A DNA stretch of 64,000 nt from an uncultured Pelagibacteraceae bacterium. GTDB taxonomy: Bacteria; Pseudomonadota; Alphaproteobacteria; Pelagibacterales; Pelagibacteraceae. A model generated the notes under the pieces. That model searched no databases, was not told the DNA's origin, and saw nothing but the letters and a program-made list of their open reading frames with translations. Shown here one piece after another: positions 741 to 33,364 of this stretch. The translations under genes were made by a program, and so were the position numbers. Positions within the stretch are counted from its first letter, which is position 1; each line of letters starts with the position of its first letter. The stretch spans positions 1-64,000 of the forward strand of contig CACIFV010000004.1 in NCBI GenBank assembly GCA_902586025.1. The letters are read 5' to 3'.

Positions 741-2030
741 CTATTTTCCATCTATAGCAACAATTGTTAAATCATCTTTTTGTATGTGTCCTGCACTAAG
801 AATATCATCAATCATTGTTTTAAGTCTATCGTTGATCGCAGTCGATTGATATTTTTTAATATAATTTTCAAAACCTTCTGATCCTAACATTTCTCCATTT
901 GGATTTTTTATTTCGGTAATTCCGTCTGTAAAAATATACATTGAGCTATTTTCGAAAGGTATGGTGTGCTCAGGATATTTCGTTTTAGGCATTATACCCA
1001 AAGGAGGACCAGCTTCAGAAAAATTACTAAATGTTCCATCAGCTGATAAAATTAATGGGGGTTCGTGGCCCGCGCTTGAAAGCAGCAACTCTTTTTTATT
1101 TGAGTCGTATATTCCTATTAACATAGTAACAAACATACCTCTTGATATAGTTTCGCAAATCTCATTATTTAATTGAAATAATAAATCAGATGCAGAAAAA
1201 TTGGTTTTACTTAAGCACCTGTACAAACTAGATGCTTTAGACATTAAGAGTGATGACTTAATCCCTTTTCCAGATACATCTGCAACCCCAAATCCATATT
1301 TTCCATCTCCTAAATCAGAAAAATTATAAAAGTCACCTGAAACAACCTTGGCAGGGATATTTATTCCAGAAATAGGAAAGTCTTCCTCTTTATTTTTAGA
1401 TAATAAAGATCTTTGAATTTCTCCAACAATTTCTACTTCTTTTTGTATTTTATTTTTTTCAACCATCTCTTTTGCCATTTTTGCATTCCTAATTGCTAAT
1501 GCAGCAGGAGCCGAAAGTGTTTCTAAAAGTTTTCTGTCATCTTCTATAAATAGTTTATCTTGAGTTTTCTTATTTAAACAATGAATAACCCCAATACATT
1601 CATTTGCTGCAATCAAAGGTGAGCATAAAACTGAATATGTTGTAAAATTTGTTTTATTATCTAAATCAAAATAAAATTCAGCTATCTCTCGAACATCCTT
1701 TCTTACATTACCTACACGAATACATTTTCTTTGCTGCACAGCTTTACCCATAACACCATCTTTTAAGTCTAATTCATACTCATCTAAATAATCTTGATGA
1801 AGTGAAGCAATACATTCAAATTTTTTCTTTTGCTCATTAATTAGAAAAATATTTGCAGCTTCAGCATTTAGTCTTGCAATGATAACTCGCAATGCATTCA
1901 TGAGAGTGTCATTTAAATCAAGAGATAATGCAAAGTCTTGGTTCATTTTTGTGACAAGCTCTAAATCGACGTTAACTTGTTCAGCTTCTTTTTTTGGTTC
2001 GATCGGTTTTTTTGATTTAAATAGAAACAT
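741..2030 (-). CDS. GAF domain + SpoIIE/PP2C-type serine phosphatase (RsbU-like)
   Basis: GAF-like N-terminal half (AEAANIFLINEQKKKFECIAS... SPLIAANECIGVIHCLNK); SpoIIE motifs VVSGDFY, ADVSGKG, SAGHEPP, FTDGITE, KDDLTIV. Confidence 0.9.
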   Translation of the reverse strand: MFLFKSKKPIEPKKEAEQVNVDLELVTKMNQDFALSLDLNDTLMNALRVIIARLNAEAANIFLINEQKKKFECIASLHQDYLDEYELDLKDGVMGKAVQQRKCIRVGNVRKDVREIAEFYFDLDNKTNFTTYSVLCSPLIAANECIGVIHCLNKKTQDKLFIEDDRKLLETLSAPAALAIRNAKMAKEMVEKNKIQKEVEIVGEIQRSLLSKNKEEDFPISGINIPAKVVSGDFYNFSDLGDGKYGFGVADVSGKGIKSSLLMSKASSLYRCLSKTNFSASDLLFQLNNEICETISRGMFVTMLIGIYDSNKKELLLSSAGHEPPLILSADGTFSNFSEAGPPLGIMPKTKYPEHTIPFENSSMYIFTDGITEIKNPNGEMLGSEGFENYIKKYQSTAINDRLKTMIDDILSAGHIQKDDLTIVAIDGK

Positions 2031-18728: not shown

Positions 18729-19362
18729 TACGACTCCATTTAAATTTATTTACATTACCAAATCTTGTCCATTCAACTAAGTAGGCAGGTTTTTCTAATC
18801 CTTTAGCATTACTAATAGGGCACTTTCCACCATTTTTTTTAGCGTTATCAAATGTACACAATATAATATATTGATCAGTAGCATTTGAAGGTTCGTCTAA
18901 AGTAACTCTTAATTGGTTTTTGATTTTACCTAAGGTTTTGTAATGTGTTCCATTTTGAGAAAAACATATTGAGCTTTCCCTATCTAAGTGTGTAGCTACA
19001 TCATAAGTCTTGTTATCCACTTCAGAAGTCCAAAATGAACTTGATGTGTAACAATCCATTGGGTTGCCACTATTTAATCTATTAGTGTAAGCACTTCTAG
19101 ACAATCCTCTTGTTATAATTTGTGTTGAGTTACTACCATTAGGTTTGATGTAAACTTGCACAAAAGGAAGAGAGCCTCTTTGTGATTGAGTGTTAATTGA
19201 ATTAATCATATTAACAACTTTTTCAGTGGAAGCTCTTAACACTCTATCTTTGTTATAGTCCATAAAATTTGGAATACCAACAGCCGATACTATTGCTACA
19301 ATTGAGATAACAACTAGCAATTCGAGTAATGTAAAACCTTTAATGTTCTGATCTTGTAGCAC
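18709..19362 (-). CDS. fimT: FimT/GspH-like minor pilin
   Basis: NIKGFTLLELLVVISIVAIVSAVGIPNFMDYNKDRVLRASTEKVVNMINS prepilin N-terminus. Confidence 0.8.
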   Translation of the reverse strand: MLQDQNIKGFTLLELLVVISIVAIVSAVGIPNFMDYNKDRVLRASTEKVVNMINSINTQSQRGSLPFVQVYIKPNGSNSTQIITRGLSRSAYTNRLNSGNPMDCYTSSSFWTSEVDNKTYDVATHLDRESSICFSQNGTHYKTLGKIKNQLRVTLDEPSNATDQYIILCTFDNAKKNGGKCPISNAKGLEKPAYLVEWTRFGNVNKFKWSRNGWTRM

Positions 19363-20356
19363 CTGGATCTATTTTCCCTGCTTTAGCCAATTCTTCTAAA
19401 GATTTTTCCATTGTTATCATACCATCTCTTACTGCAGTTTGCATGATGCTTGGAATTTGATGAATTTTAGCTTCTCTAATTAAGTTTTGAATTGGTGCTG
19501 TACATTTCATAATTTCAAATGCTCCAACTCTACCCGCACCATCTCTTGTTTTTAACAATCTTTGTGTAACAACCATTTTTAAAGATGTTGAAATTTGAGC
19601 TCTTATTTGCTCTTGTTGTTCAGGTGGAAACACATCAATAATTCTGTTTATTGTACTTGGTGCGCCACTTGTGTGAAGTGTTCCAAATACTAAGTGACCT
19701 GTTTCTGCAGCGGTTAATGCAAGACTAATAGTTTCTAAATCTCTCATTTCGCCAACTAAAATTACATCTGGATCTTCTCTAAGAGCTGCCTTTAAAGCTG
19801 CAGCAAATGTTTCTGTTTGTTTGCCTACTTCTCTATGAGAAACTATACTTTTGTTATCTTGATGAATAAATTCAACTGGATCTTCAACAGTAATAATATT
19901 TGCAGTTCTTGTTTTATTTATTTCATTAACAATGGCTGCAAGTGTAGTTGATTTACCTGAGCCTGTTGGACCAGTAACTAAAACTAAGCCTTTATGAAAG
20001 TCGACAATATCATAAAGAGATTGTGGTAAATTAAATTGATCCATTTCAGGAATTTTACTTTCTACTCTTCTACAAACACACGCTGGTCCTTTTATTGTTT
20101 TATAAAAGTTTGCTCTAAATCTTAATCCACTTAATGTTACCGAAGTATCTAGCTCGTGAGTTTTATCAAATTTATTCAATTCATGTTCGTTACAGTTCAT
20201 TGATAATAAATCTTTTATATCTTGTGCCGTAACCATTACTTCTTGAACTTTAATTATTTCTCCGGTCTGTCTATAAGCAAGAGGGGCACCAGCTCTAATG
20301 TGGAAATCAGAAATCTTCTTATTATTTTTTGCCAATTCTTCTAATTTTTCAAACAT
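19340..20356 (-). CDS. pilT: PilT-family twitching/retraction ATPase
   Basis: Walker A VTGPTGSGKSTTLAAIV, EDPVEFIHQ, VILVGEMRDLETISLALTAAETGHLVFGTLHT, RIIDVFPPEQQEQIR. Confidence 0.93.
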   Translation of the reverse strand: MFEKLEELAKNNKKISDFHIRAGAPLAYRQTGEIIKVQEVMVTAQDIKDLLSMNCNEHELNKFDKTHELDTSVTLSGLRFRANFYKTIKGPACVCRRVESKIPEMDQFNLPQSLYDIVDFHKGLVLVTGPTGSGKSTTLAAIVNEINKTRTANIITVEDPVEFIHQDNKSIVSHREVGKQTETFAAALKAALREDPDVILVGEMRDLETISLALTAAETGHLVFGTLHTSGAPSTINRIIDVFPPEQQEQIRAQISTSLKMVVTQRLLKTRDGAGRVGAFEIMKCTAPIQNLIREAKIHQIPSIMQTAVRDGMITMEKSLEELAKAGKIDPGATRSEH

Positions 20357-20482: not shown

Positions 20483-22198
20483 ATGAAAAATCCTTTCGCA
20501 AATCTTTTTAAAAAAAAGAGTAAAGATGGTCCACCGGATAAACCCGTACCAAAGCCAGATGCGGGTAAAAAGAAAGAGAGTTTTTTTAGCAAACTATTAA
20601 AGAATAGATTAGGAAAATCTTCAATAAAAGGTGAAGAAATTTTAGGTGTTGAATTGACACCAAACGAAATTAGACTCGCTCAAGTATCAAGCAATAAAGC
20701 AAACCAATGGGTTTTAGATAAATTTTATGTTCATAAATTTGATGGAGTTCCTGAGGGTGGAACTGTTTTAGAAAATCAGGATAAAATTGCAGAAGAATTA
20801 AAGTTAGCTTTATTAAAATCAAAAGTTTCAACAACAAACGCTGCAATAGCAATTCCAGTCACAAGTGCGATCATTAGAGTGGTGACTGCACCTTTGATGA
20901 CAGAAGAAGAGTTAAAAAAAGCGATTGATACAGATTCACTTTGGGAAAATTTAGTTCAACTAACAGATAACTTGGCAGAATATTCAATATTCCATCAAGT
21001 TATTAATAAAGATGAAAAAGCTAATACGATGGATATTTTGTTTGTTGCTTCAAAACTTTCAGACATTAACAGTTATACAGCAATCATTAAAAAAGGTGGA
21101 CTAAATGCTGTAATCATCGATGTTAAATGCTTCGCTTTAAAATCTGCAGTAGACCAAATCAATCAAATAGCCGGATCAATTGAAGACTCAAATTTAACAG
21201 CAGTTCTAGAATTCGGTCTTGATGAAAATTATGTAATGATACTTTATGAAAATAATCCAATCATCACTGATATTTTTATAAGAGCTCAAGACAGAAAAAC
21301 TTTATCTGAAAGTAATAATCAAGAAGAAATGGATGCTTTGGTTAGAAGATATATGACTCAGGTTAAACAAGCTGTTCAAGATTTTGAAACAAAATATGAA
21401 AAAAGAATTAGAAATTTAAAAGTCACATCTAATTTGCCAAATGTAGAAGACTATTTGGCAAGCTTTAGAAAAAATATGGTTAATACTGGTTACAATCTTT
21501 TTAATCCATTTGACGGAATTAAGATACCTGCTCAAATAGAAAATGAAACTAAATTAAGTAACCCTTCTTATTTTTCAACAGTTATGGGTTTAGCATTTAG
21601 AAAGCTAGATGTTTTTGGATATTATAAATTTGTGACAGCGGTAAAAAATATTAACTTACTTCCTAATCGAGAAAATATGATAGCGCAGAAAAAAGCTAAA
21701 GCATTTTCTAATTTTGCATTTAAAGGAATAGCTGGAATCGTTGCCGTTATATATATTGTGCTATTTGGTTTTGCTTTTTGGCAAATTACAGACTTAAATA
21801 AAAAAGTCGAAGGATATGAACAAGTCGTTCAAACTCATCAAGATAGATCAAATAAATTTGATGACATAATGAAAGAAAAAAAATTAATGGATAAATCTTT
21901 AGAATTAAGCAATTCAATTAAATCAAATAAAACAATAAGTTTTAGAGTATTAGCTCAAATTGCTTCAGCAGTGCCTAAAAGAGTAAAATTTGATTCAATT
22001 GAATATAATGGTTCAGATTTAGTTATAATTCAAGGATCAGCATTTAGTGATCAAGATATATTAAAATTAATCAGCAATTTAAATAATAAAAAATTAATTT
22101 CTCAAGCATCCCTTGCTAGCATGACTTTGCCAAATGAACAACAAGGTTCACAAACTATGAAGGGCTTTAAAATTGCTTGTATATTGGAGAACGTATAA
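20483..22198 (+). CDS. PilM-PilN fusion protein
   Basis: PilM actin-like domain (GVELTPNEIRLAQVS...) followed at about residue 390 by canonical PilN N-terminus KNINLLPNRE, then TM (GIAGIVAVIYIVLFGFAFW) and PilN-like periplasmic region. Confidence 0.9.
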   Translation: MKNPFANLFKKKSKDGPPDKPVPKPDAGKKKESFFSKLLKNRLGKSSIKGEEILGVELTPNEIRLAQVSSNKANQWVLDKFYVHKFDGVPEGGTVLENQDKIAEELKLALLKSKVSTTNAAIAIPVTSAIIRVVTAPLMTEEELKKAIDTDSLWENLVQLTDNLAEYSIFHQVINKDEKANTMDILFVASKLSDINSYTAIIKKGGLNAVIIDVKCFALKSAVDQINQIAGSIEDSNLTAVLEFGLDENYVMILYENNPIITDIFIRAQDRKTLSESNNQEEMDALVRRYMTQVKQAVQDFETKYEKRIRNLKVTSNLPNVEDYLASFRKNMVNTGYNLFNPFDGIKIPAQIENETKLSNPSYFSTVMGLAFRKLDVFGYYKFVTAVKNINLLPNRENMIAQKKAKAFSNFAFKGIAGIVAVIYIVLFGFAFWQITDLNKKVEGYEQVVQTHQDRSNKFDDIMKEKKLMDKSLELSNSIKSNKTISFRVLAQIASAVPKRVKFDSIEYNGSDLVIIQGSAFSDQDILKLISNLNNKKLISQASLASMTLPNEQQGSQTMKGFKIACILENV

Positions 22199-22836
22199 TG
22201 GATTTAAAGAACATGACAATGGACGATCTAAAACAGAAATTTTCTGCTATAGATAAAAAAACACTTATAAAATTTGGAATAGGATTTGGAGCAATTATTC
22301 TTTTCTTAATTATTTACTATGCAATCCTAAATCCGATGGTTAAGGAGAGAAAAGCAAAATATCAAGACAAAATTCAAAAAGAGCAAGAGATAGTTGATTT
22401 TGAAAATAATATTATTTCTTTAAAAAAAACTATAAAAAAAATGAAACCGAAGTTTGAAGAAACATCAACTTTGTTTCATTCAAAAGCTGAGGTTGAAGAT
22501 CTTTACCAAAGTCTCAGTAAGCATGCAGCAGTTAATGGTTTGGTTATTTCAAAAATAGAGAAAAAAGAACCAAAGCCAGTTTTAAAGGTTGGAGTGACAG
22601 ATCAATCAGAGAATAACCTTCAAAAAGAAATGGTCTCATATTACAAAATTCCAGTAGACTATGAAATTAAAGGAAATTTCTTAGGTTATATAAAGTTCAA
22701 AAGAGCAGTATCTAAGCAAAAGAAAATGTTAAATTTTGACAAGGAGACAATAAGTGTAGTACAAAATGATTCAACTGGAGCGATAGTAGCAACAGGAGAA
22801 TTAACAATAGTGGGAATGCCAGATGAATTTTTTTAA
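22198..22836 (+). CDS. pilO: PilO-like inner-membrane alignment protein
   Basis: Single TM then coiled-coil and PilO-like domain; TAATG overlap with the upstream gene supports ATG at 22198 rather than ORF start 22177. Confidence 0.88.
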   Translation: MDLKNMTMDDLKQKFSAIDKKTLIKFGIGFGAIILFLIIYYAILNPMVKERKAKYQDKIQKEQEIVDFENNIISLKKTIKKMKPKFEETSTLFHSKAEVEDLYQSLSKHAAVNGLVISKIEKKEPKPVLKVGVTDQSENNLQKEMVSYYKIPVDYEIKGNFLGYIKFKRAVSKQKKMLNFDKETISVVQNDSTGAIVATGELTIVGMPDEFF

Positions 22837-23272
22837 GATATTATTTATTATAATTTTGCTATTGCTGCCTAAGACATTACTTTCTGATAATCACGATCAA
22901 AAAAAAGAAGTTTTAGATCAGGTAAAAGAAATAGCTAAAGAAATGGAAGAAGATGAAGAGGTGCCACTAAATGATCCTTTTGCAGGAAATGAAGGCACAA
23001 GCTCAATGTCAGGTAATATACCTGCCGAAGAACAAGAAAATGACTTAAGTTTATATAATTTTAAATTAGCAGGATTAATATCAGGAAAAGATTATAGTTA
23101 CATATCAATTGTTAATTCAGGGGGAGAAGTTTTAACTCTATCGCTTGGACAATATTTAGGAAAAATACAATTAGTAGATTTAAGATTAAATGAAGCAATC
23201 TTTAAAAAAGAAGATGGAAAGTTCATGATCATAGATTTTAACAGTCAAGTTAGAGAGGCAGATGATTATTAA
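22823..23272 (+). CDS. pilP: PilP-like periplasmic protein
   Basis: Signal/TM N-terminus and C-terminal domain FKLAGLISGKDYSYISIVNSGGEVLTLSLGQYLGKIQLVDLRLNEAIF; position between pilO and pilQ. Confidence 0.8.
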   Translation: MNFFKILFIIILLLLPKTLLSDNHDQKKEVLDQVKEIAKEMEEDEEVPLNDPFAGNEGTSSMSGNIPAEEQENDLSLYNFKLAGLISGKDYSYISIVNSGGEVLTLSLGQYLGKIQLVDLRLNEAIFKKEDGKFMIIDFNSQVREADDY

Positions 23273-24824
23273 AAAATATTATAATACTCTATTTGTTATA
23301 TTATTTGCATTTTTATTAAGTGCTTGCGGCCCAAACTCACAATTTGCAAAAAAGTATAATAAACCTTTCAAGCACAACACTCCATTAATTAAAGATCAAA
23401 ACATCGTGGATTCAGGAAAATCTGAAGTTGCCAAAACCTTAGAAATGGGTCCTAAGCCATTAGAAGGAGACTCTAGAAAATTAGGAAAAAGAAAGAAAAT
23501 TTCATCTGAAGCCCAGAGAAATTATTTAATTATCTCTGACGAATATCCATTATTAAAGCAAAGAGTTACACTTAAATTTAAAAACTTAGATTATAAAGAA
23601 ACCATGAAGTTGATGGGTAAAATCGGTGAAATTAATATTCTAGTAGGTGATGAAGTTGCTGGAGCAATTTCAGCAGAGTTAATTGATGTTCCTTGGGATA
23701 AAGCTTTTCAGGCTTTACTAGATATGAAAAATTTTGCATCTGATGTCGATGTAGCAAGTAACTTAATTAGAATCCATTCACCAGAAACATTAACAGCTCA
23801 AGAAACATACAAGTCTGAAAGAGCGCAAGCAGTTAAAAAGAAGGTTGAATTAGAGGATAGTGTTGAACCAATTTATTCTGAAATATTTAGGCTTTATTAC
23901 ATAACACCTGCTCAAGCTAAACAAACGATTGAAGAATTATTTACACAATCTTCAGGTGATAGTTCTTACACACCAATACAAATAACAGAGGAAGTTACAA
24001 CTCGATCAATAATTGTAAGAGGTAAAGAAAAAGATTTAGATGTAGTTGATAAAGTTGTTAAAGAAATAGATATTAGAACAAAACAAGTTCTAATTGAGGC
24101 TTTCATTGTTGAAGCCAATTCAGATTTTGAAAGAGCGCTTGGATCTAGGCTTGGAGGTTATTACAATAGAACTGGAAAAATTGCTGGAGGTACAGCAAGT
24201 ACTAGTAGTGGAAGTGCATTTGGTACTGATTTAGATACTGCCGCTGGCTTAGGAGCTGCAACAGATAGTTTGGCTAATTTCCCAGTAACTGGTGCGACAA
24301 GCGGAATAGGGATATTAAGACGAACAGGCTCAGGTGTTCTTAAAGCAGAAATCACTGCCCTTGAGAGTATGGGTATGGGAAAAACTATCTCGAACCCTAA
24401 AGTATTTACTTTAGATAATCAGTTAGCAACTGTTACACAAGGTGAGGAAATTCCATATCAAACAACATCTGACGGAACAACCTCTACTTCATTTAAAGAA
24501 GCTGCATTAAAATTAGAAGTTACACCAAGTATCATTGGAGATGGAAATGTTCTTTTAACTATAAAAGTAAATAATGATACACCAAATAGATCAGCTGGAG
24601 GAGATGAACCTCCAATTAATAAAATGGAAATTGTAACTAAATTATTAGTTGCAGATGGAGATATTGTTGTAATCGGTGGAATTAAGAAAAATGTAGTATC
24701 TCAAAGCAAAAATCAAACTCCAGGTATTGGAAATATGCCAGTAATTGGCAATCTCTTTAAAGGTAAGGCAAATTCTGATAACCTAGATGAATTATTGGTG
24801 TTTATAGCACCAAGAATTTTATAA
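23262..24824 (+). CDS. pilQ: Type IV pilus secretin PilQ (short form, predicted lipoprotein)
   Basis: Secretin motifs VLIEAFIVEANSDFERALG, EITALESMGMGKTISNPKVFTLDNQLATVTQGEEIPYQT, NMPVIGNLFKG...ELLVFIAPRIL; lipobox LLSAC. Confidence 0.92.
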   Translation: MIIKKYYNTLFVILFAFLLSACGPNSQFAKKYNKPFKHNTPLIKDQNIVDSGKSEVAKTLEMGPKPLEGDSRKLGKRKKISSEAQRNYLIISDEYPLLKQRVTLKFKNLDYKETMKLMGKIGEINILVGDEVAGAISAELIDVPWDKAFQALLDMKNFASDVDVASNLIRIHSPETLTAQETYKSERAQAVKKKVELEDSVEPIYSEIFRLYYITPAQAKQTIEELFTQSSGDSSYTPIQITEEVTTRSIIVRGKEKDLDVVDKVVKEIDIRTKQVLIEAFIVEANSDFERALGSRLGGYYNRTGKIAGGTASTSSGSAFGTDLDTAAGLGAATDSLANFPVTGATSGIGILRRTGSGVLKAEITALESMGMGKTISNPKVFTLDNQLATVTQGEEIPYQTTSDGTTSTSFKEAALKLEVTPSIIGDGNVLLTIKVNNDTPNRSAGGDEPPINKMEIVTKLLVADGDIVVIGGIKKNVVSQSKNQTPGIGNMPVIGNLFKGKANSDNLDELLVFIAPRIL

Positions 24825-26572
24825 TGATTAACATAAGTAGAGAGTCAGAAATTAATTTAATTAATATCTTGATAGACCAAGATATTATTTCTGGAAAAGA
24901 TTTAGCTGAAATAAAAAAAGTTTCTAGCGATGGGAATAAATCACAATTAGATGCAGTATTTGAATTAAACTTAACAGATGAACAAAAAATATTGGATTTA
25001 TTAGTTCATGATCAATCATTAGATGTTGTTGATTTATCAGCCATACAAGTGACCGAAGAACTAAAGGCTGTCCTTCCTTCTAACTATATAAATATGAATT
25101 TTATAGCGCCATTTAAAATTGAAGGAAAAGTTTTACATATTGCGATTTCTGATATCTCAAAGTTAAGTTTAATGAGAAACTTAAGAACTATTACTAAAAT
25201 GGATATCGAACTTCATGCAGCAAAAGTTTCAGATATTTCAAATTTTGTAGATAAACTTTTAGCAGATGGTGAAAAAACCATCTCAGACATTAGACAAACT
25301 CAAGCCGAAAAAACTAAAACTTTTGATTATGACGTAGATGAACAAGCTGAAGTTTTAGAAAGCCAACCCGAAGAAGATATAGAAGCAATCGAAAATGAGT
25401 CGGAAGTTATCAAGTTTAGTACAGCAGTTGTAGCTGACGCGATTAAATCAGGTGTATCTGATATTCACATTGAACCATATAGATTTACATCAAGAGTAAG
25501 ATATAGATTAGATGGTATTCTTACTGAGCAAGAACATTTCAAAAAATTTTTACATTCAAATTATGGTGCGGTTGTTACAAGATTTAAAATTATGGGAAAA
25601 TTAGACATTGCAGAAAGAAGACTTCCACAAGATGGAGCTATACCATTTAAAATTGATGGTAAAGTAGTTGATTTACGTCTTTCAATTCTTCCAACAGCAA
25701 CTAATGAAAGAATTGTAATGAGGGTTCTTAATAAAGATGCGGGAGATATAAGTTTAGAGCAATTAAATTTTGAAGAAACGGATTTAAAAAATTTAAGAAA
25801 AGCAATCCATGGTACACAGGGACTAGTACTTGTTACAGGTCCAACAGGTTCAGGAAAAACAACAACTTTGTACAGTATTCTTAAAGAAGTTTCTAAACCT
25901 CATCTAAATATTTTAACGGCTGAAGATCCAGTTGAGTATGAACTCGATGGTGTTGGGCAGGTTCAAATTAAAGATGATATTGGTTTTAACTTTGCAACAG
26001 CTTTGAGATCATTTTTAAGACAAGACCCAGAGATTATTTTAGTCGGAGAGATGCGGGATAAAGAAACAGTTGATATAGGATTAAAAGCAGCACTTACAGG
26101 ACACTTAGTTTTCAGTACACTACACACAAATGATGCCCCAAGCACAATTACTAGGTTACAAAACATGGGTACTCCAGATTATTTAATAAGCGCAGCTGTA
26201 AGTTTGGTTCTAGCACAAAGATTAGCAAGAAAAACTTGTACAGAATGTAGAGAGCCGGACAATGACATTACTCCAAAAGCATTAGCTGACCTAGGCTTTA
26301 CTGTTGAACAAGCATCAAGAGCAAAAGTACAAAAGGGAAAAGGTTGTCCAAAATGTAAAGATAGTGGATACAAAGGTAGAATGGGAATATATGAAATATT
26401 GAATGTTACAAAACCAATAAAAGAGGCAATATTGCGAAAAGCTACAACACCAGAATTAAAAGAAATTGCATCTAATGAAGGTTTCAGAACAATGCAAGAT
26501 ATGGGAAGAGAACTTATATTAACTGGAGATTTAAATTTCAGAGAATTTGATAGAGTTCTTTCTATGGATTAA
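24824..26572 (+). CDS. pilB: PilB-family pilus extension ATPase
   Basis: GspE/PilB N-domain, LVTGPTGSGKTTTLYSIL, LTAEDPVEYELDGVGQVQI, CxxC pairs CTECREPD...CPKCKDSGYKGRMGIYE. Confidence 0.95.
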   Translation: MINISRESEINLINILIDQDIISGKDLAEIKKVSSDGNKSQLDAVFELNLTDEQKILDLLVHDQSLDVVDLSAIQVTEELKAVLPSNYINMNFIAPFKIEGKVLHIAISDISKLSLMRNLRTITKMDIELHAAKVSDISNFVDKLLADGEKTISDIRQTQAEKTKTFDYDVDEQAEVLESQPEEDIEAIENESEVIKFSTAVVADAIKSGVSDIHIEPYRFTSRVRYRLDGILTEQEHFKKFLHSNYGAVVTRFKIMGKLDIAERRLPQDGAIPFKIDGKVVDLRLSILPTATNERIVMRVLNKDAGDISLEQLNFEETDLKNLRKAIHGTQGLVLVTGPTGSGKTTTLYSILKEVSKPHLNILTAEDPVEYELDGVGQVQIKDDIGFNFATALRSFLRQDPEIILVGEMRDKETVDIGLKAALTGHLVFSTLHTNDAPSTITRLQNMGTPDYLISAAVSLVLAQRLARKTCTECREPDNDITPKALADLGFTVEQASRAKVQKGKGCPKCKDSGYKGRMGIYEILNVTKPIKEAILRKATTPELKEIASNEGFRTMQDMGRELILTGDLNFREFDRVLSMD

Positions 26573-26575
26573 TAA

Positions 26576-27817
26576 ATGTCTTCAGAAACATTTACATATA
26601 AAGGCATTTCAGCAGGAAAATATATTGAGGGAGAAATAGAGGCCCTTAATCAGGAAGAAGCGTCATATAAGCTAAAAGAACAAAAGATAATAATCACCAA
26701 TTTAGTTAAAACTAAAAAGAAAAAAGCTGCTAAAGAAAAAGGTAAAAAAAGCGGTTTTTCCTTTGGAAAGAAAAAAGTTACGCCTCAAGATGTAATGATT
26801 TTCTCAAAACAGTTTGCAACCATGGTTAAGGCAGGTCTTCCAATTTTAAATGTACTTTCAATGTTACGTGATCAAATTGAGCATCCAACAATGAAAGAAA
26901 TTATTGAGGATATTAGAAAAAGTCTAGAAGGAGGTATCACACTTTCAAAATGCTTTGAAAAATACCCTAAGGTTTTTGATAATATTTATATAAACTTAAT
27001 AAAGGCAGGAGAGGCCAGTGGTAAATTAGATGTCTTCTTGCTGAAATTAGTGGACTCACTAGAAAAAAGAGAAAAAGTTAAAAAGAAAATTAAAAGTGCA
27101 TTAACTTATCCTGTTGTCATGTTTACAGTAGCAATAACTGTAATGGTATTCATGTTAATTAAAGTTGTTCCAATATTTGCTGAAATGTATGAAGGAATGG
27201 GAGTACCTTTACCAACGCCTACAGCAGTTATTATGAATGCCAGTAATTTTATGAGAGGAGCGGGTGGTTTAACTTTATTTATAGTTTTAGCAATAGGATT
27301 TGTAATATTTAAATACACGACAACTAAAATACCAGCAGTAAGATATAAATGGCACAATAGAGTTTTAAAAATGCCTGTATTTGGAGATATGATTTTAAAA
27401 TCTTTAATTGCGAGAATATCTCTTATTATGGGTAACCTTAGCTCTGCAGGCGTAAATTTGCTAGAGAGTATAGAAATTGCAAAACAAGTAAGCAATAATG
27501 ATGTTGTTACTCAAGCTTTAGAAAATGTTAAAAAAGGTGTTTTCTCAGGAGATACTTTAACAAAACTATTTTTAAAAGAGCCAGTATTCCCGCCAACTTT
27601 TAGTCAGTTAATATCTGTAGGTGAACAAACTGGTAATTTGGATGAAATGTTTACATCAGTATCAGCTTATTATGAAGAAGAGTTTGATACAGCAGTGGAT
27701 AATATGTCGAGTTTAATTGAACCGATTATGATTGTATTTATGGGTACAATGATCGGTGGTTTAATGATAGCTATGTATTCACCAATCTTTAATGTCGGTG
27801 CAATTATTGGAAGTTAA
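26576..27817 (+). CDS. pilC: PilC-family inner membrane platform protein
   Basis: Two T2SF domains, FSKQFATMVKAGLPILNVLSML, LIKAGEASGKLD, LISVGEQTGNLDEMF. Confidence 0.95.
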   Translation: MSSETFTYKGISAGKYIEGEIEALNQEEASYKLKEQKIIITNLVKTKKKKAAKEKGKKSGFSFGKKKVTPQDVMIFSKQFATMVKAGLPILNVLSMLRDQIEHPTMKEIIEDIRKSLEGGITLSKCFEKYPKVFDNIYINLIKAGEASGKLDVFLLKLVDSLEKREKVKKKIKSALTYPVVMFTVAITVMVFMLIKVVPIFAEMYEGMGVPLPTPTAVIMNASNFMRGAGGLTLFIVLAIGFVIFKYTTTKIPAVRYKWHNRVLKMPVFGDMILKSLIARISLIMGNLSSAGVNLLESIEIAKQVSNNDVVTQALENVKKGVFSGDTLTKLFLKEPVFPPTFSQLISVGEQTGNLDEMFTSVSAYYEEEFDTAVDNMSSLIEPIMIVFMGTMIGGLMIAMYSPIFNVGAIIGS

Positions 27818-28242
27818 TAATTTATTTTTTTAGACAAAATTAAATGGTTAATCCAAGGCTTTTCGCCTTCTTTAAATACTACTGCATCCATTATTTGTTG
27901 AATAAAAAAAGTTCCAAGTCCTCCAGGTTTAATATCATCAATTTTTCTATGTCGAATTTTATCTTTTTCAACTGGTCTTCCTTTATCAAAAAATCCAATT
28001 TCTAAATTTCCATTTGATAAAGAAATTTTAATCTCCATTTTATCTTCAGTATCTTCACCTTGGTAAGCATGTTTTACAATATTTTGGGCTGCTTCTGCTA
28101 TTGCTAGTACAAGTTCATCTTTTAAATCTTGATCAATATTTACTTTTTCAAAAACTTCTCTTGAAAAACTTCTTACATCTTTAAGACTAGATGAACTTAC
28201 AACAAAATCTCTTTGTTCTGATATTTGAGCAAGGTTATTCAT
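27814..28242 (-). CDS. RsbW/SpoIIAB-like anti-sigma factor serine kinase (HATPase_c)
   Basis: N box ELVLAIAEAAQNIVKHAY, G1-like FFDKGRPV, G2-like GGLGTFFIQQIMD. Confidence 0.9.
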   Translation of the reverse strand: MNNLAQISEQRDFVVSSSSLKDVRSFSREVFEKVNIDQDLKDELVLAIAEAAQNIVKHAYQGEDTEDKMEIKISLSNGNLEIGFFDKGRPVEKDKIRHRKIDDIKPGGLGTFFIQQIMDAVVFKEGEKPWINHLILSKKINY

Positions 28243-28245
28243 TAT

Positions 28246-28545
28246 TTATCCTAAGTTTAAAATTTGCTCCAGTTTTGCCATCATAATTACTTTTAAAACT
28301 GACTTACTAATATCTTTTAAAATGACTTTTGTTCCAAGTTCAGTTGCTTTTTGATGACTTTCAATTAGTACAGATATTCCAGATGAGTCCATATACTGGA
28401 CTTCTTTTAGATTTAGATGAACTTCTTTTTTTGCCTCAATAAGAGGCATTATTACTTCTTTTGCTTTTTCTGTTACATCCATATCAATTTCACCATCTAG
28501 GTGAACAATTGATATTCCGCCTTCCTCAATAACTTTGTATGACAT
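28246..28545 (-). CDS. STAS-domain anti-anti-sigma factor (RsbV/SpoIIAA-like)
   Basis: ISIVHLDGEIDMD and phospho-acceptor motif VQYMDSSGISVLIES. Confidence 0.92.
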   Translation of the reverse strand: MSYKVIEEGGISIVHLDGEIDMDVTEKAKEVIMPLIEAKKEVHLNLKEVQYMDSSGISVLIESHQKATELGTKVILKDISKSVLKVIMMAKLEQILNLG

Positions 28546-28621
28546 AAATATTAATATTTATTAAATTTCCCTGTGAAATCAACAAAAATGACCCATTTTG
28601 AATATATTATGTATGTAGATA

Positions 28622-28651
28622 TTGACTTTCAAAAGATATAATTATTATGTA
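28622..28651 (+). promoter_or_regulatory. Candidate sigma70-type promoter for the pilin operon
   Basis: TTGACT at 28622-28627; candidate -10 TATTAT (28643-28648, 15-bp spacer) or TATGTA (28646-28651, 18-bp spacer) in the intergenic region between divergent genes. Confidence 0.35.
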
Positions 28652-28687
28652 TATACATATTTTTTATTTAAAATAGGATCATAAATT

Positions 28688-29155
28688 ATGAAAAAAAATA
28701 ATAAAGGTTTTACACTTATAGAATTATTAGTTGTTGTAGCCATCATCGGTATTTTAGCTGCCGTTGGAGTAGTTGCTTATTCTGGTTACACAAAAGGAGC
28801 AAAAAAATCAGCAGTTAAATCAAACCAAGCTGCAGTGCTTAAGTATGTGGCTGCTGAACTTAAAAAATGCGAAATTGGAGAGTCTGAAGTGATGGTTAAA
28901 GACTCAAATAAATTGACTTGTTCAAGTAGAAAAACATCAGGAGAAGTTGCGAAGGCTACAAATAATGCTTTAGGATCAGAATTTAAAAATCCTTATTCGA
29001 CATCTAATTCTGCAATCAAAACAACCAAATTAACTTCTTGTGGTACAGGTGACGAAGGTTATACAAGTGTCACAGATAATGGTACCAAAGTAGAAATTAT
29101 ATCTTGTGAAGTCAGTGGAGCCACTTTGCTGTCAGGCTCTGTTACCATAGAATAA
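28688..29155 (+). CDS. pilA: Type IV prepilin, probable major pilin
   Basis: NNKGFTLIELLVVVAIIGILAAVGVVAYSGYTKGAKKSA class III signal peptide and pilin N-terminal helix. Confidence 0.88.
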   Translation: MKKNNKGFTLIELLVVVAIIGILAAVGVVAYSGYTKGAKKSAVKSNQAAVLKYVAAELKKCEIGESEVMVKDSNKLTCSSRKTSGEVAKATNNALGSEFKNPYSTSNSAIKTTKLTSCGTGDEGYTSVTDNGTKVEIISCEVSGATLLSGSVTIE

Positions 29156-29170
29156 AGTAAAAAAATTTTT

Positions 29171-29578
29171 ATGACAACCAGGAGCTCAGGTTTTACCTTA
29201 ATTGAGCTTTTGGTTGTTGTTGCAATTCTTGGAATAATTTCAGCAATAGGAATAGTAAGCTATAACGGCTACGTTTCGTCAGCAAAAAGGAAATCTGCAG
29301 AAAATATAATTTTACAAATTTCGCTTGCACAAAGTGAATTCTACTCCGATGAGGATGAATATTTTACTCCTGGATGCGGACCTAATAATTCAACATCGAC
29401 TACTTTAGAAACAAAACTACTTGGTGGGTCCGACGTTATTACCCCTGAGATTGGTTATGAATTTTGTTCTCAAGGATCTGCGGAAACTTATACAATTATT
29501 GCTCAAGAAACTGGAGCTAAATCACCATGCAAAATTGAATATACAGATAAGTCTGTTTGGACACGAACAAATTGTTAA
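29171..29578 (+). CDS. Type IV prepilin, second tandem pilin (PilE/ComP-like)
   Basis: RSSGFTLIELLVVVAILGIISAIGIVSYNGYVSSAKRKSAE; Cys-containing C-terminal half. Confidence 0.85.
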   Translation: MTTRSSGFTLIELLVVVAILGIISAIGIVSYNGYVSSAKRKSAENIILQISLAQSEFYSDEDEYFTPGCGPNNSTSTTLETKLLGGSDVITPEIGYEFCSQGSAETYTIIAQETGAKSPCKIEYTDKSVWTRTNC

Positions 29579-29580
29579 TA

Positions 29581-29832
29581 ATGAACATTGAGATTAGTAA
29601 ATATTTAGAAAAAGTTAAATTTATTTTTTCTGGAGATCTCTCAAAAAATTTTAAGATCTATACAACTCTTAGTTTAGCATGGATAATTTTTATTGGGTAC
29701 TTGACTTGGTGGAACGGTTTAAGAAGTCCAATGTTAGACAAAAGCTTTAGATGGGATGAGTGGTTTTGGTTTGGGATTGTTCCAGCTCTTTCTCCGTATC
29801 TATTTTATTTTATCTGGAAAAAAAAAGAGTAA
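29581..29832 (+). CDS. Small membrane protein of unknown function
   Basis: ATG at 29581 just after pilin stop; two hydrophobic segments (YTTLSLAWIIFIGYLTWW; WFWFGIVPALSPYLFYFIW). Confidence 0.65.
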   Translation: MNIEISKYLEKVKFIFSGDLSKNFKIYTTLSLAWIIFIGYLTWWNGLRSPMLDKSFRWDEWFWFGIVPALSPYLFYFIWKKKE

Positions 29833-29899
29833 CCAACCTATTTTGACCATCTATTTTCTATGATGAACTTTAAAATAAATATAACCTTAAGAGGATGAA

Positions 29900-32050
29900 G
29901 TGGAGAATATAGATCTGGAATCGGTTAAGTCATTTGTAGATACTCTTTGGGTTATAGATTGCGCTATACTTGTTTTTATAATGCAAGCAGGTTTCATGTG
30001 CATGGAAACAGGTTTATCAAGACATAAAAATAGCATTAACGTTGCTCTTAAAAATGCTGCTGACTTTGGTCTAGCGGTTGTAATTTTTTGGCTATTTGGT
30101 TTTGGTTTAATGTTTGGAAAAAGTTTTAATGGCTATTTTGGAACTGATTTATTCTTTTTTAAAACTGATCAAGCTGAATACATGACATATTTTGTATTCC
30201 AAGCAATGTTCGTTGCAACTGCAGCTACAATTGTTTCAGGAGCTGTTGCTGAAAGAATGAAGTTCAATGGTTATTTAATAATCACTATTATAGCTACTGG
30301 AATAATATATCCAATAGTTGGCCATTGGGCATGGTCATCAAGTTATTTAAATAATATTGATGCTACAAGACAATTACTTGCAGTAACTGGGCAAGTTAAA
30401 ACCACTGGATGGCTGACAGATATTGGATTTGTTGACTTTGCAGGAAGCACCATTGTTCACTCAGTTGGAGGTTGGATTGCATTATCGGCAGTTTTAATTT
30501 TAGGTCCTAGAATAGGAAAATATTCAGATGCAAACAAAGGAAAATTCACAGGATCAAGTTTCCCTTTAGCAGTATTGGGAACTTTAATTTTATGGTTTGG
30601 ATGGTTTGGTTTTAATGGTGGAAGTAATGGAGCTATGGATGAAGCGGTTCCACTAATCTTAATAAATACATTTCTAGCTGCCTCTTTTGGATTATTAACA
30701 GGTCTTGGAATTTCTTTTGCTCTATTTAAAAAACCAGATCCTTACTATGTAATTATTGGACCACTTGCAGGACTAGTTGCAATTACAGCAGGATGTAATT
30801 CGATGACATCAGTGACTTCAATATTTGTCGGAATTATAGGAGCGGTGGTTGCTATTTTTGTAAATGAATTTTTAAATAAACTTGAAATAGATGATGTTGT
30901 TGGTGCCGTGCCTGTTCACTTAGCAGCAGGAGTTTGGGGAACTATTGCAGTTGGATTATTTAGTGACATTGAAATACTTGGTACTGGATTAACGAGACTA
31001 GAACAAATCAAAGTACAGTTTATTGGAATTGTTTCAATCGGTGTATTCTCATTTTTTGGATCATATATTTTATTGAAAATTTTAAATTATATTTATCCGT
31101 TAAGAGTAAGTCCTTTACATGAAGAGCTAGGTCTGAATATTGCAGAACACAATGCCACTTCTGTTGAACATGATTTAATAACAATTTTAGAAAAACAATC
31201 TGAGTCTGGAGATTTAACAATAAGAGGACCTCAAGATCCATTTACTGCTGGAGGAGTAATCGGTCTTTATTACAATAGATTGATGAGTAAACTAGAAACT
31301 AGTGAAGCTGAAAAGAAAGTATGGAGAGACAGAATTTCAAATGAAGTAAAACTTGCGGTTAAAGTCCAAGAAAACTTTTTACCAAAAAGAAATTTGGAAA
31401 ATTACCCTGTGCATGGAATTAATATTGCAGCCAGAGAAGTTTCAGGAGATTTCTTTAGTTTTTATCCTCATAATGACAGTGTTTATTTTATAATCGCAGA
31501 TGTCGCTGGCAAAGGAATTCATGCTGGAATGGTCATGGCTAAAGCATCAACTTTATTTGAAATCATGTCTAGAGATCAAGTGGATCCAGATGAAATGATG
31601 TTTCATATGAATAATGATCTGTTTTTAACTAAAACGGGTGGCATGTTTGTTACCAGTATATTAGGAGAATATAATATGAGGACTGATGAATTAAGATGGG
31701 TAAACGGAGGTCATCAACCAGCTATAATTAGATCATCATCAGGAAACTATGAACAATTTGAAAGTAATTCACCACCTATGGGAGTAATACTTCAAAAAGA
31801 CAAATCAGTTTATAAAACTCATAAAGTTAAGTTGGAAAATAATAGGTTTTATGCTTTCACTGATGGTTTATCAGAAAGCTTAAACAGGGAAGGTGATGAA
31901 ATAGGAGTAGATGGCTCATTAAAAATTATAGAACAAAATTATAACTCTGATTCTAGTAAGCAATTATCAGATATATCTAATGCAGTAATCAATACTGCTG
32001 GAGACAACAAGTTAAGTGATGACTTAACCTTAATATCTATAGGCAAATAA
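29900..32050 (+). CDS. Ammonium transporter (Amt/Rh family) fused to C-terminal SpoIIE/PP2C serine phosphatase
   Basis: Amt motifs IMQAGFMCMETGLSRHKNS, FQAMFVATAATIVSGAVAERM, twin-His positions TIVHSVGG and VPVHLAAGVWG; C-terminal AREVSGDFF, IADVAGKG, NGGHQPA, FTDGLSE, SDDLTLI; GTG start after GAGGATGAA. Confidence 0.93.
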   Translation: MENIDLESVKSFVDTLWVIDCAILVFIMQAGFMCMETGLSRHKNSINVALKNAADFGLAVVIFWLFGFGLMFGKSFNGYFGTDLFFFKTDQAEYMTYFVFQAMFVATAATIVSGAVAERMKFNGYLIITIIATGIIYPIVGHWAWSSSYLNNIDATRQLLAVTGQVKTTGWLTDIGFVDFAGSTIVHSVGGWIALSAVLILGPRIGKYSDANKGKFTGSSFPLAVLGTLILWFGWFGFNGGSNGAMDEAVPLILINTFLAASFGLLTGLGISFALFKKPDPYYVIIGPLAGLVAITAGCNSMTSVTSIFVGIIGAVVAIFVNEFLNKLEIDDVVGAVPVHLAAGVWGTIAVGLFSDIEILGTGLTRLEQIKVQFIGIVSIGVFSFFGSYILLKILNYIYPLRVSPLHEELGLNIAEHNATSVEHDLITILEKQSESGDLTIRGPQDPFTAGGVIGLYYNRLMSKLETSEAEKKVWRDRISNEVKLAVKVQENFLPKRNLENYPVHGINIAAREVSGDFFSFYPHNDSVYFIIADVAGKGIHAGMVMAKASTLFEIMSRDQVDPDEMMFHMNNDLFLTKTGGMFVTSILGEYNMRTDELRWVNGGHQPAIIRSSSGNYEQFESNSPPMGVILQKDKSVYKTHKVKLENNRFYAFTDGLSESLNREGDEIGVDGSLKIIEQNYNSDSSKQLSDISNAVINTAGDNKLSDDLTLISIGK

Positions 32051-32122
32051 CAATCTAAGTAAAATAAACCCGCGATCAAATATCATATATATAAAGCGTT
32101 TCTTAGAAAATATATTTTAATT

Positions 32123-33364
32123 GTGTTTGAAAAAAATCTGAAAATTGGAATTATTGGTGCTGGCATACAAGGTGTTTGTAATGCTCTGTTTCTTCAAAAG
32201 AAAGGTTTTCAAGTAACACTTTTTGATAGAGAGGAGCCAGGAAGTGCAGCGTCATATGGAAATGCTGGTCACTTTTCTCCTTATGCGTCCGTTCCTTTAA
32301 ACAGACCAGATGTCATAGCTGATGTTCCTTCGATGTTAATTAGTTCAAGAGGACCATTAGCTCTAAAGTGGAACTATGTACCAAAGATGATTCCTTGGTT
32401 TGTAAGATTTATCTTAAATTGTAGGGAAGAAAAAATGATGCATACGGCTAAAAATATGCACCAAATTTTAGATCAATCATTACCAGCTTTTGACGAATTA
32501 TTTGATGAAATTAATCTTGATGGGTTAGTTGAAAATAATGGAATTCTTTATGTTTGGACTGATCAAAATATGAAGAGTAGAGAACTAGAAATTAGAATTA
32601 GAGATCAATTGGGAGTAAAACAACAATTAGTTAATAAAAAAGAAATTCATGATCTAGAGCCAAACCTAAAACCATTTTATCATGGTGGTGTTTTTTATGA
32701 TTACGCAAGACACGCAAGAAATCCAAGAAAAATATTAGTAAAATTATTTGAAAATTTTGTAAATAAAGGTGGAAAGTTTTTAAAATTGAATATTCAAGAT
32801 ATAGATTTTGATGAGGAAAAACCTGTATTGAGAACAGAAACGCAAAGATTTATTTTTGATAGACTTGTAATTGCGTGTGGGGCATTTTCAAAAAGACTAA
32901 CAGACAAGTTACATGAAAATATACCTCTAGATACTGAAAGAGGATATCATGTTCATTTTACAAATTATGATCATTTAATTTCAAGACCAATTGTTTATGC
33001 AAATAGAGGTTTTGGAATGACACCGATGGAACAGGGGTTGCGAGTTGTTGGAACAGTAGAATTTGGAGGTCTAGAAAACTCTCCATCTAAATCGAGAATA
33101 AAAAACTTGATATTAAATGCAAAAGATATGTTAGATGGGTTGCCTGAACATAAAGATGAGTGGCTTGGTTTTAGACCCACATTACCAGATTTTCTACCAG
33201 TCCTAGGGCCTTCAAAAAATTATAAAAATGTTTTTTATTCATTTGGTCATCATCACTTAGGTTGGACACTTGGTGCAATATCAGGAAAAATTATATCTAA
33301 AATGATCTCAGGTGAGAATACTAACTTAGATTTGCAACCATACAGCTCAATAAGGTTTAGTTAA
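32123..33364 (+). CDS. FAD-dependent oxidoreductase, DadA-like D-amino acid dehydrogenase family
   Basis: GIIGAGIQGVCNALFLQKKGFQVTLFDREEPGSAASYGNAG; C-terminal GFRPTLPDFLPVLGPS, GHHHLGWTLG. Confidence 0.85.
   Translation: MFEKNLKIGIIGAGIQGVCNALFLQKKGFQVTLFDREEPGSAASYGNAGHFSPYASVPLNRPDVIADVPSMLISSRGPLALKWNYVPKMIPWFVRFILNCREEKMMHTAKNMHQILDQSLPAFDELFDEINLDGLVENNGILYVWTDQNMKSRELEIRIRDQLGVKQQLVNKKEIHDLEPNLKPFYHGGVFYDYARHARNPRKILVKLFENFVNKGGKFLKLNIQDIDFDEEKPVLRTETQRFIFDRLVIACGAFSKRLTDKLHENIPLDTERGYHVHFTNYDHLISRPIVYANRGFGMTPMEQGLRVVGTVEFGGLENSPSKSRIKNLILNAKDMLDGLPEHKDEWLGFRPTLPDFLPVLGPSKNYKNVFYSFGHHHLGWTLGAISGKIISKMISGENTNLDLQPYSSIRFS

Follow-up and report, generated by a model that had tools for sequence, protein, structure and literature searches.

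The window, the whole stretch of 64,000 nucleotides that was analyzed, comes from a draft genome of an uncultured Pelagibacteraceae bacterium (G000; 1.1 Mb, 83% complete). It carries one long open reading frame in which an Amt domain, a HAMP-like segment, a helical stalk and a phosphatase domain follow one another:

29900..32050 (+): Amt-HAMP-SpoIIE receptor phosphatase (predicted), 716 aa, single open frame
29948..31159 (+): Amt domain, ammonium receptor-type, aa 17-420 (Pfam PF00909 Ammonium_transp, E 2e-111)
31163..31309 (+): HAMP-like transducer, ~aa 422-470 (linker profile, hhalign, AlphaFold2)
31310..31399 (+): helical stalk/linker into the phosphatase, aa 471-500 (AlphaFold2 continuous helix 453-493)
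31475..32041 (+): SpoIIE/PPM (PP2C) phosphatase domain, aa 526-714 (PF07228, E 8e-35)

The frame starts with GTG, and a ribosome-binding-like AGAGG lies 5 nt upstream. The original prediction of one uninterrupted 716-aa Amt plus SpoIIE frame was borne out by an ORF check and by the Pfam domains. That prediction was to fall if related genomes showed the two halves split by a frameshift or wrongly joined in assembly, and neither was seen: 18 congeneric genomes (sister species; 73-97% identity) have the fused ORF at full length, with no stop codon inside it. Named contigs from single cells (L035-L045) and from metagenomes also have the fused ORF or its paralogue, and the relatives are labelled uncultured Pelagibacteraceae; a HIMB59/AEGEAN-169 clade label was set aside. 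Frameshift or assembly chimera was ruled out by these many independent intact copies. Leaving aside a single noisy comparison of 30 codons, pairwise dN/dS (omega) never exceeded 0.23 and was mostly below 0.15 across Amt, HAMP, stalk and SpoIIE; for the stalk it was near 0-0.08 in most ortholog pairs. All segments of the receptor phosphatase are under purifying selection, and the low values in all four alike indicate that the joint is kept by selection.

A scan of 27700-32300 gave a promoter count no higher than chance and a few terminator-like stems, within genes only. A 91-aa protein matching no Pfam family is encoded at 29557-29832 (+), between the second pilin gene and the receptor gene, and is conserved in several relatives.

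The Amt half and its linker

All canonical features of an Amt pore were present, including the Phe gate (F104), the tryptophans and both twin histidines, H187 (TIVHSVGG) and H340 (VPVHLAAG), the latter pair as originally described. Sequence and fold searches returned Sd-Amt1 (Shewanella denitrificans; PDB 8QJ3, 8QJ4, 8QPF) as the nearest solved structure and Ks-Amt5 (PDB 6EU6) as the second, before AmtB and Amt-1. Sd-Amt1 is a receptor-type Amt with 45% identity in the structural match, and its homology extends past the Amt domain into the HAMP region (aa 10-481). Its structures bear the titles 'Receptor Sd-Amt1 (ON-state)' and '(OFF-state)'.

In Ks-Amt5, Q24, E31, N47, D50, T51, T109 and T112 together bind a pair of ammonium ions (PMC5764959). 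Aligned to Ks-Amt5 (6eu6), the window protein has Q29, E36, N52, D55, T110 and S113, conserving Q24, E31, N47, D50 and T109 and replacing T112 by S; T51 is replaced by F56, and the same F and S occur in aligned Sd-Amt1. Two of the pore-blocking residues of Ks-Amt5, Y30 and F34, correspond to M35 and L39. The residues of the two-ammonium site are present, and are shared with some non-receptor Amts. Their QEND core was found in 63/63 fused SAR11-type Amts with data, in 20/21 other Amt-HAMP proteins with data, in 0/16 plain Amts from this order and in 36/71 other related plain (non-fused) Amts. Because of this last count, QEND is compatible with sensing and is neither diagnostic nor proof of it.

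In a maximum-likelihood Amt tree, all fused SAR11 rows formed one clade (100/100), which nested among the sensor Amts (clade support 99/93) and well away from the plain Amts of SAR11. The tree thus ruled out that a transporter gene of SAR11 had been joined locally to a phosphatase. Given that placement, the phosphatase fusion looks like an exchange of effector on a pre-existing receptor, made once.

The linker was compared with known transducers by profile methods. Searched against 399 Pseudomonadota genomes, the linker profile recovered Amt-linker proteins in 19 other genomes at about E 1e-9 or better. A weaker tier of matches covered the second half of the profile only, and 10/10 of those checked coincided with Pfam HAMP domains; the HAMPs recovered belong to chemoreceptors, kinases and cyclases. 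Of five linker fragments, two, both from other lineages, matched PF00672 HAMP directly, below the curated cut-off, and so did two full Amt-linker proteins; the window protein's own linker, as a single sequence, gave no Pfam HAMP match. Profile-profile comparison of linker and HAMP by hhalign gave 98.8%, with HAMPs that had been preselected by the linker profile. The segment shows an AS1 helix, a connector and an AS2 helix with the HAMP sequence pattern; AlphaFold2 placed a helix at 422-436, a loop and a single helix at 453-493 running into the phosphatase, with low pLDDT in the linker. An unstructured spacer was rejected in favor of HAMP from the profile and hhalign results. On this evidence a cryptic HAMP domain makes up the linker and runs into a helical stalk.

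The linker signature was found in 82/397 sampled genomes of the order, all but one of them in the window's genus. The remaining genome (G513), of another genus of the family, encodes a 719-aa protein that is also Amt plus SpoIIE. Several genomes carry a paralogue of 744-765 aa, in tandem or separate, with ~52-55% identity over the whole protein. The paralogue (e.g. L045:9876-12125) has an N-terminal extension, and has A at the position of S242 (FNGGS) of the window protein.

The phosphatase, the partner-switch pair and the pilus genes

All five PPM motifs were found in the SpoIIE half, (S)GDFF, DVAGKG, GHQPA, FTDG and DDLTL, which upholds the earlier description of a complete catalytic set. 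The catalytic aspartates D517, D534, D655, D707 and D708 were invariant in 20 aligned homologues. This half matched PDB 3eq2 (RssB-type; E 8e-8) and, by Foldseek, RsbX 3w40 (E 3e-9); model matches to SiaA (E 4e-5) and the RssB type (E 9e-8) were weak. Upstream of the receptor gene, and elsewhere in the window, lie the following:

741..2030 (-): GAF-SpoIIE phosphatase (PF07228 E 8e-42, GAF)
19340..20356 (-): PilT retraction ATPase (TIGR01420, 413 bits, cut-off 319)
20483..22198 (+): PilM-PilN fused protein (PF11104 and PF05137)
22177..22836 (+): PilO-like (PF04350, E 2e-6)
23262..24824 (+): PilQ-like secretin (PF00263, E 2e-41)
24824..26572 (+): PilB-like assembly ATPase (PF00437; TIGR02538 E 2e-167, below its cut-off)
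26576..27817 (+): PilC/GspF-like inner membrane protein (PF00482, E 1e-61)
27814..28242 (-): RsbW-like serine kinase (HATPase_c_2), 142 aa (PF13581, E 9e-20)
28246..28545 (-): STAS anti-anti-sigma-type protein, 99 aa (PF01740 E 3e-17; TIGR00377 above cut-off)
28688..29155 (+): type IV pilin-like protein (PF07963, E 1e-10)
29171..29578 (+): second type IV pilin-like protein (PF07963 and ComP_DUS)

The STAS gene lies where it had been placed before but is on the minus strand, and the D53-S54-S55-G56 stretch of its product is invariant in the alignment. The kinase matched the RsbW model at E 3e-14, below the equivalog cut-off, with its ATP-site motifs conserved. A STAS protein with a phosphorylatable serine is encoded beside an RsbW-like kinase, in a genome that encodes SpoIIE phosphatase, as in a partner switch; STAS and HATPase_c_2 kinase were each detected as a single copy in the 83%-complete draft. 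The kinase and the switch protein are probably the partners of the neighboring receptor phosphatase.

The pair is flanked by pilC on one side and by two pilin (pilA) genes on the other, inside a pilMN-O-Q-B-C cluster that has genes for PilT and prepilin peptidase nearby. The order pilMOPQBC-[RsbW-STAS]-pilA is kept across the genus, and Amt-SpoIIE follows it in many genomes. Some genus members have two STAS genes plus a CHASE2-SpoIIE gene. In G513, RsbW, STAS, Amt-SpoIIE and pil genes lie within 20 kb and their products are 22-50% identical to those of the window.

Co-occurrence was scored in 39 genomes at least 95% complete, picked by presence or absence of Amt-SpoIIE; STAS domains of ~540-aa transporter-like proteins were left out of the count. 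Small STAS proteins were found in 26/26 genomes with PilC and in 0/13 without it, and SpoIIE in 26/26 and 1/13, respectively. Amt-SpoIIE was present in 19 of the 26 PilC and STAS genomes. Every near-complete carrier (19/19) held pilus, STAS and SpoIIE genes, and the co-occurrence of the fused architecture with STAS, proposed earlier as a check, was thereby found. Fisher p was 1e-10 for PilC with STAS and 1e-5 for Amt-SpoIIE with STAS, values that ignore ancestry and linkage. Part of this co-occurrence reflects shared inheritance, as the pilus genes are in physical linkage with those for STAS and the kinase. Amt-SpoIIE without detected STAS was seen in several incomplete genomes (G017, G020, G021, G035).

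Two proteins of the draft match the SpoIIE half. The GAF-SpoIIE protein is likely a second input to the same STAS/RsbW switch. Its gene adjoins a prepilin peptidase gene. A third sensor-phosphatase kind, CHASE2-SpoIIE, is encoded in the same region of sister species, beside a FecR-domain protein in L138:

L138:14057-16114, L138:12637-13998 and L124:9105-11105 (+): CHASE2-SpoIIE region, sister species

A predicted ammonium-responsive pilus switch

With moderate confidence, we read the locus as a chain from an ammonium receptor through HAMP to a SpoIIE phosphatase, which would dephosphorylate STAS within a partner switch tied to pili. Ammonium would enter the Amt selectivity filter and occupy an intramembrane two-ion site as in Ks-Amt5. 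The change in Amt would be relayed via HAMP and the helical stalk, and the stalk would pair the SpoIIE/PPM domains and set their activity. The active phosphatase would strip phosphate from the 28246-28545 STAS protein, to which the 27814-28242 kinase would add it. The STAS/kinase pair would be a switch dedicated to the surrounding type IV pilus cluster. Other signals would reach this switch via GAF-SpoIIE, with CHASE2-SpoIIE as a further route in sister species, and its output would be a change in how pili are produced or how active they are. We infer the ammonium response, its sign, the STAS substrate and the pilus output of the Amt-SpoIIE protein.

The phosphatase RsbU becomes active when its linker forms a coiled coil and so dimerizes it; the same mode of action is predicted for phosphatases joined to HAMP, and control of PPM dimers in this way is an established proposal (PMC12143880). 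Against the proposed scheme stand QEND in related non-fused Amts, the sub-threshold HAMP match of the window protein, the low AlphaFold2 confidence in its linker, the share of co-occurrence owed to common inheritance, the incomplete genomes with Amt-SpoIIE but no detected STAS, the competing SpoIIE phosphatases, and the unlike symmetry of Amt trimers and PPM dimers. The sign of the ammonium effect is a guess: ammonium would drive HAMP pairing and activate the phosphatase, on the model of Sd-Amt1, which is reportedly ON when ammonium is bound.

An ammonium-sensing phosphatase acting on STAS, as first proposed, is partly supported and is still the best reading of these gene and domain comparisons. 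In its favor are the nearest structures, which are receptors, the two-ion residues, the HAMP linker and the single-copy STAS and kinase; the STAS substrate is weakened by the GAF-type SpoIIE protein in the window, which could use the same STAS. The first proposal had passed over four things: an RsbW-like kinase, the HAMP character of the linker, the surrounding pilus genes and the second SpoIIE gene at 741-2030 (-). Its argument for sensing from the lack of an adjacent glnK gene is weak, because no PII gene was matched anywhere in the draft, though non-fused Amt genes are present; the linked PII gene of an assimilatory AmtB-GlnK pair was accordingly not found in the draft.

The receptor phosphatase could be as described while the switch sequesters a housekeeping sigma factor (RpoD or RpoH), the pilus link then being neighborhood or one regulon of several. 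Sequestration of a housekeeping sigma factor by a partner switch has been reported for Chlamydia, and the RsbW-like kinase has the classical anti-sigma fold. Two sigma factors were detected in the draft (618 and 299 aa; RpoD-like and RpoH-like by size), so any sigma target would be RpoD or RpoH. A dedicated alternative sigma factor was dropped as a target, none being detected in the 83%-complete draft. The gain and loss of STAS and SpoIIE along with pilus genes over the 39 genomes, and a single-contig genome (G499) that lacks STAS, SpoIIE and pilus genes alike, argue against sigma sequestration, which we regard as unlikely. A plain importer or transceptor, in which Amt transports while the phosphatase, independently of ammonium, answers to a different signal or dephosphorylates locally, would account for the canonical pore with its twin His and Phe gate, and for QEND in non-fused Amts. 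It fits poorly with nearest structures that are receptors with a HAMP-like tail, with the strong selection on the HAMP linker, with the joining of the same module to GGDEF, kinase and MCP outputs elsewhere and with the other, non-fused Amts that the draft genome also encodes; we judge it very unlikely.

That the Amt phosphatase has a different phosphoprotein as its target, STAS being served by GAF-SpoIIE or CHASE2-SpoIIE, would agree with seven genomes that have pilus, STAS and another SpoIIE without Amt-SpoIIE, and with genomes in which Amt-SpoIIE lies 20-30 kb or more from STAS. The single STAS and HATPase_c_2 proteins of the draft, the STAS held by all 19 near-complete carriers and the adjacency of the genes in many genomes and in another genus make such a target highly improbable. 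The chain from ammonium receptor to STAS is retained as the preferred reading, and suggests that ammonium tunes surface fibers in these cells. A broader version is held tentatively and with more doubt than belief: a multi-input bank of SpoIIE phosphatases would feed a pilus-dedicated switch, unphosphorylated STAS would act on the pilus machine or pilin supply without a sigma factor, and ammonium patches would control the fibers.

Relation to known receptors and switches

The Amt is fused at its C terminus to a signalling effector in one ORF, the arrangement of receptor Amts. Sd-Amt1 is said to be an Amt-HAMP-GGDEF protein with a two-ammonium site; the output of the window protein differs in being SpoIIE/PPM rather than a diguanylate cyclase, and lies within a partner-switch and pilus cluster. 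Ks-Amt5 is likewise an Amt receptor fused to a signalling enzyme; it lacks HAMP according to its authors and carries a histidine kinase (PMC5764959), whereas the window protein has HAMP and a phosphatase. Like RsbU/RsbP/SiaA-type PPM phosphatases, the window protein has a SpoIIE domain on a helical stalk, by which the domain could dimerize; its input is a polytopic ammonium receptor, in place of PAS, RsbT-binding or other sensors. The combination of phosphatase, RsbW-type kinase, STAS output and motility or biofilm resembles Nostoc Hmp (HmpU-V-W) and Vibrio SypE-SypA. In those switches unphosphorylated STAS is the output, with no known sigma factor, and acts on pilus-driven motility or biofilm. 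No ammonium receptor has been reported for Hmp or Syp, whereas the window's set lies inside a pilus structural cluster.

A full-text literature search, which did not cover the 2024 Sd-Amt1 paper (Pfluger et al., Sci Adv), returned no published Amt-SpoIIE protein. Receptors and partner switches of these kinds are known; their combination and the pilus setting were not found in the literature searched. To transporter-derived ammonium receptors with kinase or diguanylate cyclase outputs is added a serine phosphatase output tied to a partner switch and type IV pili, in a small-genome ocean lineage with few regulators. This raises the question of nanomolar to micromolar ammonium as a pilus switch in these cells.

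The Amt of the window protein and the 60 residues after it recur in proteins from a gammaproteobacterium, a planctomycete and Vibrio sinus, followed there by GGDEF, histidine kinase plus receiver, and chemoreceptor outputs as read by eye. Among the 19 other Amt-HAMP genomes (399 Pseudomonadota; effectors read to 1.5 kb downstream), none beyond this order had Amt-SpoIIE; in the same sample, a SpoIIE output on Amt-HAMP was found only in the window's family. Effectors elsewhere were HisKA-HATPase, PAS-GGDEF, PAS-GGDEF-EAL and MCPsignal. One Amt-HAMP module thus occurs with outputs of four kinds (GGDEF, histidine kinase, chemoreceptor, PPM), which makes it a natural case of the interchangeable HAMP/coiled-coil toolkit that has been proposed (PMC12143880). 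Amt-HAMP proteins with PAS-GGDEF(-EAL) or chemoreceptor output were seen in contigs of other bacteria (L156, L157, L162, L163, L165, L172, L048). Of the Pseudomonadota genomes sampled, ~5% encode an Amt-HAMP protein, and this receptor family seems to be underdescribed.
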